DNA from: Mycobacterium gallinarum | GTDB taxonomy: Bacteria; Actinomycetota; Actinomycetes; Mycobacteriales; Mycobacteriaceae | Reading direction: 5' to 3' | DNA length: 64,000 bases | Assembly (NCBI RefSeq): GCF_010726765.1 | Contig: NZ_AP022601.1 | Span: forward strand, 4,030,001 to 4,094,000 | Part shown: one piece after another, positions 17,615 through 38,613 of the stretch | How the letters are laid out: the number at the start of each line of letters is the position of its first letter | Numbering within the stretch: position 1 is the stretch's first letter | Program-made: the position numbers and the translations under genes | Notes under the pieces: model-generated | Database searches by the model: none | Seen by the model: only the letters and a program-made list of their open reading frames with translations | What the model was told of the DNA's origin: nothing

Positions 17615-18634
17615 GTGACGTTGCCATCGACTCTCGTCGAACCTGCTCTCCCCCGCGCCGCCGGACCCGTGTCTTCGGCAGTCCTGGACATGCTTGCGCG
17701 CCAGCGCCCGGCCCTGCCCGTACGCCCGCTCGAGGTTCCGGTCTACGAGGCGGATCCATACGGACTCGACCTGCAACTCGCGCTGTGCGTCTGCTACGAG
17801 TTGCACTACCGCGGGTTTCATTCGGTCAACCCACGCTGGGAATGGAATCCCGCTCTGCTGCACTTACGTGGCCGCCTCGAGGAGGCGTTTCTGGAGGCCG
17901 TTCGGCGCGATGTCGGGGACATCACAACCGACGACACCGCCGAAGCGGAGATGAATGCGATCTCGCAAGAGCCCGTCGAGGGCCACGGCCCGTCCTATTA
18001 CCTGCGTGACGAGGGCACCTGGGAACAGATGCAGGAGTACTTCGTGCACCGCTCGATCTATCACCTCAAGGAGGGCGACCCCCACGCGTGGGCGATCCCC
18101 CGCCTCACCGGACGAGCGAAAGCGGCCTTCGTCGCAGTCGAATTCGATGAGTACGGCGCCGGCCGCGACGAGCGGGTCCACCAGCATCTGTACGCCGAAT
18201 TGATGGACGCCGCCGGCCTCGATGCCACCTACCTCGCATATCTCAACAACGTGCCCGCCGAGGCCCTGGCATCGATCAACCTGATGTCGCTGTTCGGGTT
18301 GCACCGCCAATTGCGCGGCGCAACGGTCGGGCACTTCGCGTCCACCGAGATCACCTCGTCGCCCGGGTCACGGCGACTGGTCGACGCGCTCCGGCGGATG
18401 AACGCACCCGAAGCATGCGTGACGTTCTACTCCGAACACGTGGTGGCCGACGCGGTTCACGAACAAGTGGTGCGTACCGACGTCGTCGGCGGTCTCCTTG
18501 CGCGCGAACCGCATCTCGAGGCTGACGTGGTGTTCGGGATCAGAGCGCGCGACCTTGTCGAAGACCGCCTGGCCGACCACCTGATGGAGTGCTGGAAGGC
18601 GGGCCGTTCGTCGCTAAGACGTCCCCTGAACTGA
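17615..18634 (+). CDS. Haem-oxygenase-like iron-containing redox enzyme
   Basis: 339-aa all-helical protein of the 'iron-containing redox enzyme' group with the haem-oxygenase-like fold. Candidate diiron ligands are spread as in such oxidases: the Glu/His in EYFVHRSIYHLKEGDPH (about residues 135-155), the acidic/His run FDEYGAGRDERVHQHLY (about 175-190) and EHVVADAVHEQV (about 275-286). The N-terminal CVCYELHYRGF is a conserved block. The reaction is unknown; relatives perform oxidative decarboxylation, N-oxygenation or C-C cleavage with O2. Start GTG 17615. The stop lies inside the convergent CDGSH gene (21-bp overlap), an unusually tight arrangement. Confidence 0.8.
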   Translation: MTLPSTLVEPALPRAAGPVSSAVLDMLARQRPALPVRPLEVPVYEADPYGLDLQLALCVCYELHYRGFHSVNPRWEWNPALLHLRGRLEEAFLEAVRRDVGDITTDDTAEAEMNAISQEPVEGHGPSYYLRDEGTWEQMQEYFVHRSIYHLKEGDPHAWAIPRLTGRAKAAFVAVEFDEYGAGRDERVHQHLYAELMDAAGLDATYLAYLNNVPAEALASINLMSLFGLHRQLRGATVGHFASTEITSSPGSRRLVDALRRMNAPEACVTFYSEHVVADAVHEQVVRTDVVGGLLAREPHLEADVVFGIRARDLVEDRLADHLMECWKAGRSSLRRPLN

Positions 18635-18829
18635 CCGCTTGCCGGCTCGCGGGCGGCACCGATGGCTGGTGTCGCACATCGGATAGTCCTTGCTACGACG
18701 ACACGTGCAGATCGCGACCATGAAGCGATCGGACTCCACGACGCTGCCGTCGGGCAACTCGATTCGCACCGGTCCCTCGACCATCACCGGGCCCGAGGGA
18801 ACGATGCGCACTGTGCGGGTTTCAGTCAC
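18614..18829 (-). CDS. CDGSH iron-sulfur domain protein
   Basis: 71-aa protein with the full CDGSH-type [2Fe-2S] motif: CTCRRSKDYPMCDTSH, giving the three Cys and one His ligands (C-X-C-X8-C-X3-H), with Thr in place of Gly at CDGSH. The N-terminal half (RIVPSGPVMVEGPVRIELPD) matches actinobacterial members that open with a beta-rich segment. Such proteins move electrons or clusters. The GTG start at 18829 overlaps the methyltransferase stop (GTGA), so it is translationally coupled to it, and its 3' end overlaps the haem-oxygenase-like gene on the other strand. Confidence 0.85.
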   Translation of the reverse strand: MTETRTVRIVPSGPVMVEGPVRIELPDGSVVESDRFMVAICTCRRSKDYPMCDTSHRCRPRAGKRSVQGTS

Positions 18830-19521
18830 GGTTTCTCGGCCCTGATCACCACGAGTTCTTCCTCGCGACGGCCCGGCTCGAGCCTGCCGGTGTCCTCCAG
18901 CCACGCGGCACGCGACATCAGCACGGGTCCGAACGGAATCCACTGATAGGCAACGATTTCCGCGTCAAGTCCCGCCGACGCCAGCGCCGCCAGCGTCTGA
19001 CGCGGGACGGCGAACTCGGATTGCACCAGAAGGAAAGTGCCACCCGGGGCAAGCAGATCCGGCACCGCCTCGCACAGCGGATCGAGAACGAGGCGACCGT
19101 CGGGGCCGGCATCCCACGCGCGCGCCGGGCCGGTATCCGGTGGTATCGGCGCGTACGCGACATCGGGATCATGTGGCACATACGGCGGATTACAGACCAC
19201 CACGTCGAACGGGCCGAACTCCGCGGCGCGCGCCCACGATCCCAGATGAACATCGACATCAACGCCGGCGCTCAACGCATTCACCCGCGCGTGCCGAACG
19301 GCACGCGAGCAGACATCGAACGCCATGACCTGCGACGCCCCCTGCTCGCCTGCGGCAATCCCCACCACACCGCTGCCGGTACACAGGTCGGCTACCCGGC
19401 GACCGAGCGCGAGGTCAGACTTCTCCATCACGTCGATGAGAAATTGCGAGTCTTCCTGCGGGGCGTAAACGCCCGCCGGCGCGATCAGAGTGTCCGACGA
19501 TTCGGAATAAGCGGTTGTCAC
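18826..19521 (-). CDS. HemK2/MTQ2-family protein methyltransferase
   Basis: 231-aa class I SAM methyltransferase. The SAM loop is VADLCTGSGVVGIAA (about residues 43-57), and the amide-nitrogen-methylation motif is VVCNPPYVP (about 108-116). This motif is typical of enzymes that methylate the side-chain N of Gln, as in the GGQ loop of release factors. It is short and lacks the N-terminal helical domain of PrmC, like HemK2/MTQ2. The substrate in bacteria is unknown. It is followed by the coupled CDGSH gene and then, convergent, the haem-oxygenase-like gene. This neighbourhood recurs in actinobacteria as far as I recall. Confidence 0.82.
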   Translation of the reverse strand: MTTAYSESSDTLIAPAGVYAPQEDSQFLIDVMEKSDLALGRRVADLCTGSGVVGIAAGEQGASQVMAFDVCSRAVRHARVNALSAGVDVDVHLGSWARAAEFGPFDVVVCNPPYVPHDPDVAYAPIPPDTGPARAWDAGPDGRLVLDPLCEAVPDLLAPGGTFLLVQSEFAVPRQTLAALASAGLDAEIVAYQWIPFGPVLMSRAAWLEDTGRLEPGRREEELVVIRAEKP

Positions 19522-19646
19522 GCAAGGGCCTTTCGAACAGTCTTGGCTGCGGCATCGCAGCAGTGCGCTGGATTAATGCCCGGTATCCGGGCTGTTAAAC
19601 CGCGTCGCCCGGTTTTGCGGCCCGGCAGTACGGGCACCCCTCAAGC

Positions 19647-20318
19647 GTGCAAATCTCCGATCTCGCCTCGTTGCCCATCAAGTTCGGTGCCGCCGCTCGG
19701 GGTCGGCGCCTGTTCCATCCCGTCGGTGTGCTCGCGGAAGGCATTTTGGAGCGGACGGCCCCCGGCAGTGAGGGACTTCCCATGCGGTCGTGCGACGTCA
19801 TCGGTCGCGTATCGAAGGGTGTCGGACTGCCAGGAGCGGCGCCCGACATCGCGGGGTTGGCGTTCCGGATTCCGCCGCCGCAGGATCTGCGTTCCTGCGG
19901 TCCCTGGGATGTGCTGCTGGCATCGACGGCAGCGGGCAGCCGTTTCGGTCTGGCGCCGGTGACCTCATGGTCGGGTGCCACCTTCTCCAGCCTGATGCCG
20001 TTGCGCTACCGCGACCGCGTGTGGTGGTTACGGGCACGGCTGGCCACCGACATCAGCGACCGCGGTCTTGCCCTCAACACGATTGAATCCCAAATCAGTT
20101 CGGGCGGCGTCGAGTTCGACATCGAACAGGCTCCCGCAAAGGGTGAGTTCAGCCCGTTGGCGCGGCTCACCTTGCGCTACGTCGACCCGAGTTGTGACGA
20201 CATCGCGTTCGACCCCGCGTTGCACAGCGACTGCGACGTCGAACTACTGCCCCGCTGGTTGACCAAATTCCGGCGCGCAGCCTATCGCCGCAGCCGCCAG
20301 GGACGTGACCCGCAGTAG
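19647..20318 (+). CDS. Uncharacterised protein, possibly catalase-like haem fold
   Basis: 223-aa protein of unknown function, sometimes annotated 'phosphodiesterase' in mycobacteria without visible support. I see no phosphodiesterase motif. Residues about 22-75 (FHPVGVLAEG … GRVSKGVGLPGAAPDIAGLAFRI) resemble the R-x-S-x-G-x-G-x-PD-x-G-A pattern at the start of the catalase haem domain, so a catalase-like fold is a reasonable guess. No proximal Tyr motif is visible. Start GTG 19647. A 125-bp spacer with a perfect GCCCGG-TAT-CCGGGC palindrome (19578-19592) separates it from the divergent methyltransferase. Confidence 0.65.
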   Translation: MQISDLASLPIKFGAAARGRRLFHPVGVLAEGILERTAPGSEGLPMRSCDVIGRVSKGVGLPGAAPDIAGLAFRIPPPQDLRSCGPWDVLLASTAAGSRFGLAPVTSWSGATFSSLMPLRYRDRVWWLRARLATDISDRGLALNTIESQISSGGVEFDIEQAPAKGEFSPLARLTLRYVDPSCDDIAFDPALHSDCDVELLPRWLTKFRRAAYRRSRQGRDPQ

Positions 20319-35368: not shown

Positions 35369-37647
<2,279 letters not shown>

Positions 37648-37648
<1 letters not shown>

Positions 37649-38613
37649 CACCGCTCCGACAGTGACAGGCCGAAGTCACCGGCGCTGTCGGTCCACCAAT
37701 GTGTCCGGCGCAGGCCGGAGTCGGCCAGTTCGGCGGCGACGCCGTCAGGGCGGAACTTGCACGACACCTCGGTGAGCATCTCCTCACCGTCGGCGAACTC
37801 GATCGCGAGGTCGAGTGCCTTCACCTGCACCCGCTGGGCGTGGCCGGCGCGCAGCCACATCTCTATGCGCTCCTCGTCGGTGTTCCATTTCGCGATGTGC
37901 TCGAACGAGTCGAGGTCGAAGTCCGCGTCCAGCTCACGGTTGACCACGGCCAGCACGTTGCGGTTGAACTGTGCGGTGACGCCTGCGCTGTCGTCGTAAG
38001 CGCGCACCAGTCGATCGGCGTCCTTGACCAGATCGGTGCCCAGCAGCAGACTGTCGCCGGGCTGCAGCGTCTCCGCCAACGCGGTGAGGAACTCGGCGCG
38101 CGGCCCGGGCGTGAGGTTTCCGATCGTCGACCCGAGGAAGACGACCAGCCGGCGGCCAACCCGGGGGATCTTGCCCAGATGCTCCTCGAAGTCGCCGCAC
38201 ACCGCGTCGATCTCGATGCCCGGGTATTCCTTCTCGATGGCGGATCCGGCGGCCTTGAGTACCGACGCGTCGACGTCGAACGGTATGAACCGCCGCAGGG
38301 ATCCGTTGTCGCGCAGGGCATCGAGCAGCATACGGGTCTTCTCCGACGTGCCGCTGCCCAGCTCGACGAGCGTGTCCGCCCCCGACGCGGCCACGATCTC
38401 GGCCGACCGCTCGCGCAGGATCTGCGCCTCGGTGCGCGTGGGATAGTACTCGGGCAAACGGGTGATCTGGTCGAACAGATCGCTACCCGCGGAGTCATAG
38501 AACCACTTGGGCGGCAACGATTTCGGGGTCTGCGTCAAACCGTCGCGCACATCGCGGCGCAGCGCTTGTCCTGCCGAGTCGGCTGACAAGTAGTTCGAGA
38601 GGGCGAACGTCAT
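37648..38613 (-). CDS. egtD: L-histidine N-alpha-methyltransferase EgtD
   Basis: 321-aa SAM-dependent enzyme that trimethylates histidine to hercynine, the first step of ergothioneine synthesis, homologue of Rv3701c. Residues about 30-60 ([34 protein letters not shown]) form the conserved N-terminal block, with [20 protein letters not shown] as the SAM loop. The substrate-binding [24 protein letters not shown] and [10 protein letters not shown] follow. The ATG at 38613 is used; it overlaps the egtC stop by one base. Length and motifs match known EgtD exactly. Confidence 0.95.

Follow-up and report, generated by a model that had tools for sequence, protein, structure and literature searches.

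We analysed a 64,000-nucleotide stretch of the Mycobacterium gallinarum genome (contig NZ_AP022601.1, positions 4,030,001 to 4,094,000; hereafter the window) in which three genes stand together, encoding a haem-oxygenase-like diiron protein (HDO), a small CDGSH-type [2Fe-2S] protein, and a HemK2/MTQ2-like methyltransferase with an NPPY motif (Table 1). The HDO and CDGSH genes converge with a 21-bp overlap (18614-18634), and the CDGSH gene is coupled to the methyltransferase gene through a GTGA sequence, in which its GTG start (18829-18827) overlaps the methyltransferase TGA stop (18828-18826). The original prediction, made from this DNA alone, had given these coordinates, families, coupling and overlap, all of which proved correct to the base when checked against open reading frames (ORFs), DNA, translations and profile matches. 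Searches of the whole genome gave one above-cut-off match each for PF14518, PF09360 and TIGR00537. The anatomy, ligand conservation, predicted fold, linkage, joint absence and promoter motifs of the trio described below are computational observations. A literature search covering open-licence PMC papers found no publication on the trio, and further searches of titles and abstracts gave none.

Table 1. Features of the trio locus, numbered from the first nucleotide of the window.
Feature	Position	Strand	Basis
HDO-type diiron protein ('iron-containing redox enzyme'), 339 aa, GTG start	17615-18634	+	ORF, DNA and translation
CDGSH [2Fe-2S] protein, 71 aa, CTCRRSKDYPMCDTSH	18614-18829	-	ORF, translation, PF09360
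HemK2/MTQ2-like NPPY methyltransferase, 231 aa	18826-19521	-	ORF, translation, TIGR00537
SigF-type motif GTTT-N15-GGGAA, 10 nt before HDO start codon	17581-17604	+	motif scan
SigF-type motif GTTT-N15-GGGCA, upstream of methyltransferase-CDGSH pair	19577-19600	-	motif scan
SigF-type motif GTTT-N16-GGGCA of divergent neighbour gene	19612-19636	+	motif scan
Divergent gene, 223 aa, with its own SigF-type motif	19647-20318	+	no Pfam/NCBIfam match at E 0.01

The HDO matches PF14518 with an E value of 8.2e-59. Its predicted metal ligands (E153, E179, H189, E245, H275, D279, and H282) are invariant in 130/130 aligned sequences, so that the diiron ligands are conserved in orthologues, as the original prediction needed them to be. 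The closest solved folds to an AlphaFold2 model of the protein (predicted local distance difference test score, pLDDT, 92.9) are those of the N-oxygenases HrmI, SznF, and RohS, and E179, H189, E245, H275, D279, and H282 supply the three histidines and three carboxylates that, on a haem-oxygenase fold, characterise the HDO superfamily. The remaining predicted ligand, E153, is matched by eye to a Glu in both SznF and RohS, but to a Lys in HrmI; the SznF residue is presumably that enzyme's extra ligand, and this alignment places the protein in the subset with three histidines and four carboxylates (3H/4C). In that subset, of which SznF is the type, an auxiliary helix provides the additional Glu (PMC13108848). 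SznF shares all seven ligand residues with the trio HDO, as read from the alignment, but is only 18% identical over 305 residues, has a cupin domain, and serves a natural-product pathway; RohS is 13-15% identical. Most of what is known about HDOs comes from natural-product biosynthesis, and only about a dozen have been characterised (PMC13108848). In HrmI and SznF, the reaction with O2 gives a peroxo band near 600-630 nm. The ligands and fold suggest that the trio HDO binds two metals and activates O2, and its three nearest structures together with the 3H/4C set point to N-oxygenation as the probable type of reaction.

The CDGSH protein matches PF09360 (E 4e-16; 59.4 bits against a cut-off of 29.5) and has the expected three Cys and one His as predicted [2Fe-2S] ligands (C41, C43, C52, and H56), the cysteines being conserved in 108/108 sequences and the histidine in 107/108. 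Like the bacterial single-motif CDGSH proteins (CISD type 4), it is small and has one CDGSH-type motif, in a group common in Actinobacteria (PMC3174974); it differs from them in having Thr in place of the motif Gly (84/108 sequences) and in its dedicated linkage to an HDO. The methyltransferase scores 91.5 bits against TIGR00537, above the cut-off of 87 for the HemK2/MTQ2 family, and NPPY is present in 23/23 sequences. HemK2/N6AMT1 is its nearest relative by sequence and by fold, but the trio clade, in distinction from HemK2/MTQ2/N6AMT1, conserves a C-terminal FGPV...EELVVIRA tract. Methylation of a protein glutamine, with Trm112 as partner, is the activity of that family and a putative one for the trio enzyme. 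A canonical PrmC was not confirmed in the M. gallinarum genome, where three of five weak TIGR00537 matches were inspected as ORFs and, to the eye, resemble methyltransferases of other kinds.

To measure linkage, we used two sets of loci. The named loci are the best 80 of 523 by HDO alignment, and hence biased to close relatives; the even sample consists of 49 HDO copies from 46 Actinomycetota genomes, with the M. gallinarum genome left out. Within 3 kb of the HDO gene, a CDGSH gene was found in 71/80 named loci, a methyltransferase gene in 67/80, and both in 67/80; the corresponding values for the even sample were 31/49, 14/49, and 13/49. A relaxed search for CDGSH motifs in the 17 even-sample loci lacking a CDGSH gene within 4 kb found none. 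Two or three trio genes within 4 kb of each other occur in ten arrangements, five of which hold all three: HDO>CDGSH<MT<, HDO>MT>CDGSH>, MT>CDGSH>HDO>, MT<HDO>CDGSH>, and HDO>CDGSH>MT< (MT, methyltransferase), the last seen once and with a partial methyltransferase match (L137). Seven loci (L122, L124, L126, L127, L131, L135, and L136), from HDO clades of families f16 and f31, have none of the three partner genes (for CDGSH, methyltransferase, or a glycosyltransferase-like protein) recognisable next to HDO.

Co-inheritance was measured by genome surveys within Actinomycetota, separate from the contig scan that gave the named loci. Among 246 evenly drawn genomes of the phylum, HDO was present in 47, CDGSH in 71, and the methyltransferase in 20, the last at a threshold (E<=1e-20) that may miss divergent members. 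CDGSH was present in 36/47 HDO genomes versus 35/199 genomes without HDO, and all 20 methyltransferase genomes also hold HDO. The associations persisted with families f1 and f4 left out: CDGSH was present in 22/33 HDO genomes versus 35/197 others, and the methyltransferase in 6/33 versus 0/197; association p values in this sample ignore phylogeny. In a genus sample of 98 genomes, the complete trio is present in 87, including two with one partial match each (HDO in G258, methyltransferase in G292), and 10 have none of the genes. CDGSH and methyltransferase are missing from the same 11 genomes, and HDO from 10 of these; the eleventh, a 3.3-Mb genome, has only an HDO relic with five in-frame stops (G316:C1:2521332-2522231). 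For an rpoB tree, the 11 trio-less genomes and 19 HDO genomes were chosen, and because G285 gave no match, 29 genomes, 10 of them trio-less, entered the tree. Absence of the trio required 5 changes on this tree, 4 of which were forced by well-supported branches, although the bootstrap had not fully converged; thus, the trio has probably been lost jointly several times within the genus.

These results bear on whether the genes are neighbours merely by chance or inherited synteny. A single arrangement is common to 65/80 named loci, which are the closest relatives, as such synteny would have it. However, the ten arrangements are spread across families, the joint absences need several changes on the genus tree, and the genes co-occur across the phylum even where unlinked. 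We therefore reject chance synteny, which we regard as extremely improbable, and the original prediction's premise of more than a coincidence within one genus is upheld by linkage in several families and by co-occurrence across Actinomycetota. It is near certain, from linkage and co-inheritance, that the trio genes form one functional unit.

Regulation was assessed with a SigF-type motif, GTTT-N14-17-GGG, in the form taken from PMC4694148. Both strands of the 64-kb window hold 10 such motifs, three of them at the trio locus. Among the mycobacteria of the named set, 43/51 loci carry the motif before HDO and 43/45 before the methyltransferase, giving both transcription units the promoter signature of the SigF regulon, and it was found upstream of the operon-internal CDGSH gene in 0/47. 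By comparison, the motif occurred in 3.2% of random 200-mers from mycobacterial loci, and base-shuffled upstream regions gave means of 0.5 of 51 (HDO) and 0.6 of 45 (methyltransferase). Streptomyces SigB homologues use a -35 element of GTTT or GNNT and a GGG-type -10 element (PMC8346170). In non-mycobacterial loci, a relaxed motif (G..T-N14-17-GGG, within 260 nt) was present upstream of HDO in 11/39, methyltransferase in 5/33, and CDGSH in 1/36, versus a background of 3.7%, which is suggestive only as promoter evidence. Near the trio, sigma-like ORF clusters were found in 7 loci and RsbW-like clusters in 4, in line with general-stress control in some genera; the one member of each checked with Pfam was a sigma-70 factor (L132:10993-12030, +) and a histidine-kinase-like, RsbW-like ATPase (L092:10843-11478, +).

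Expression data in print may concern the same genes. MSMEG_1771, 1772, and 1773 are among the M. smegmatis genes that were strongly reduced when sigF was mutated; MSMEG_1771 is annotated as 'methylase, putative', the remaining annotation is 'conserved hypothetical protein', and the reported motifs are GTTT-N15-GGGTA at 29 (1771) and 696 (1772) and GTTT-N15-GGGAA at 11 (1773) (PMC4694148). We also tried to map these genes through a cytochrome P450 beside HDO, as expected from MSMEG_1775, and rejected this marker: a P450 motif was present in 2/51 mycobacterial loci, 3-4 kb away.

In 11/49 even-sample copies, from six families, HDO is followed immediately, on the same strand, by a gene with weak matches to glycosyltransferase family 2/21 (L111, L112, L113, L115, L116, L118, L120, L125, L130, L134, and L157; 10/11 outside the window's class). 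The trio methyltransferase was near none of these 11 loci, compared to a methyltransferase within 8 kb in 15/49 copies overall (Fisher p 0.011, phylogeny ignored), and on an HDO tree the methyltransferase and glycosyltransferase-like labels each need about four changes, two of them forced. This alternation suggests that either enzyme can do the tailoring for an HDO-CDGSH core, and a pathway product then fits better as the methyltransferase substrate than does HDO itself. We also weighed a protein-directed role, in which the methyltransferase would act under stress on HDO, CDGSH, or a translation factor, with HDO and CDGSH making up the oxidative part. The absence of the enzyme from 11/98 genomes of the genus makes it unlikely to be the sole release-factor methyltransferase, many loci have HDO with CDGSH and no methyltransferase nearby, and in the loci examined the glycosyltransferase-like gene never accompanies it, so that we consider a protein-directed role rather unlikely. 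Thus, of the three-part pathway in the original prediction, the functional unit stands, and modification of HDO or CDGSH by the methyltransferase gives way to tailoring of a product as the better fit.

The reading we favour, with a probability of roughly 55%, is that the trio is a co-inherited general-stress N-oxygenation unit in which the CDGSH protein donates electrons and the tailoring enzyme can be exchanged. SigF, the general stress sigma factor, would drive the trio in mycobacteria, as the computed motifs indicate and as the published expression would also show, provided that MSMEG_1771-1773 correspond to the trio; SigB-type factors probably do so in some other genera. The 3H/4C diiron site of HDO would activate O2 and oxidise a nitrogen-bearing substrate, the CDGSH [2Fe-2S] cluster would re-reduce the diiron site for repeated turnover, and the methyltransferase, on the same pathway, would N-methylate the substrate or product, a role that a glycosyltransferase-like enzyme would take in some other lineages. 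Precedent comes from streptozotocin biosynthesis, in which the 3H/4C N-oxygenase SznF works with the arginine N-methyltransferase SznE; the available portion of that account mentions no CDGSH partner (PMC11705231). A wider proposal, which we advance tentatively and think somewhat improbable, is a general-stress pathway spread over actinobacterial families, in which the CDGSH protein would be a dedicated donor to a diiron N-oxygenase, so gaining a defined catalytic role for CDGSH proteins, and an interchangeable methyltransferase or glycosyltransferase would finish an N-oxygenated stress metabolite or peptide.

A simple way to read the linkage is that CDGSH passes electrons to HDO. The same linkage fits equally well a CDGSH protein that supplies iron or a cluster and so assembles or repairs a labile HDO diiron cofactor instead of donating electrons for turnover. 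Proteins of the mitoNEET type are discussed as handlers of clusters and iron, which supports such a supply role. Many HDOs do have labile diiron sites (PMC13108848). Against supply, the one dedicated HDO partner in the literature consulted, from mangotoxin biosynthesis, is a reductase: MboA, like the trio HDO, has its own iron-sulfur redox partner, MboB, and the authors describe the two as perhaps the first pair of HDO and redox partner to be characterised, although MboB is a flavin and [2Fe-2S] reductase rather than a CDGSH protein and MboA makes an alkyne (PMC13185094). On balance, we doubt that iron or cluster supply is the function of the CDGSH protein. The trio might also be a strain-specific secondary-metabolite cluster of the kind that contains SznF or FlcD, both natural-product enzymes, with no general stress role, and the alternation of methyltransferase-like and glycosyltransferase-like partners would suit such a cluster. 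Its presence in 87/98 sampled species of the genus, with SigF-type promoters, argues otherwise, as does the lack of any further core gene recognised beside it, most recurring ORF clusters there being unannotated; we judge this explanation quite improbable.

Several observations weigh against the favoured N-oxygenation unit. Neither CDGSH nor methyltransferase lies within 4 kb of HDO in 17/49 even-sample copies, no CDGSH match was found in 11/47 HDO genomes of the phylum sample and no methyltransferase at E<=1e-20 in 27/47, indicating that HDO is able to function with different partners. The methyltransferase is remote from HDO, or on a separate contig, in G243, G182, G023, G159, and G120. Of the mycobacterial upstream regions, 12/51 (HDO) and 24/45 (methyltransferase) carry the SigF-type motif on the other strand as well, where it perhaps serves divergent genes, as it does for the divergent gene of the window, and the strict GTTT form is rare outside mycobacteria. 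The equation of MSMEG_1771-1773 with the trio is drawn from gene order, annotation, and promoter spacing, and the published MSMEG_1773 promoter string, with up to one mismatch, had 0 matches in 396 genus genomes. Finally, the nearest fold, that of the lysine N-oxygenase HrmI, has a 3H/3C site, and the fold leaves the reaction open, as desaturation and C-C cleavage are also among the reactions of HDOs (PMC13108848).

Three points go beyond the original prediction: the SigF-type promoters before both transcription units, the glycosyltransferase-like gene at loci that lack the methyltransferase, and a likely correspondence with SigF-dependent genes of M. smegmatis. If the favoured reading is true, an HDO with a fixed iron-sulfur partner would, in most species sampled from the genus (87/98), be part of the general stress response. 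The electron donor of HDOs in cells and the role of bacterial CDGSH proteins would become testable questions, and three strongly SigF-dependent M. smegmatis genes with putative or hypothetical annotation (PMC4694148) acquire a biochemical hypothesis.

The trio is flanked by genes for a nitroreductase-family deazaflavin-dependent protein, a luciferase-like monooxygenase, and YqeY. We rejected the divergent gene as a fourth core part: a homologue was present in 13/51 mycobacterial loci, making it an occasional companion. Clusters of neighbouring ORFs were likewise rejected as a source of extra core genes: judged by eye, the majority were reading-frame artefacts of GC-rich DNA, and few were annotated. 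The glycosyltransferase-like gene of the 11 loci held up among them. Elsewhere in the window, an ORF at 36527-37651 (-) encodes a putative pyridoxal-phosphate-type enzyme resembling by eye the ergothioneine C-S lyase EgtE, and an ORF judged by eye to be S-adenosylmethionine methyltransferase-like (35796-36530, +) adjoins it.
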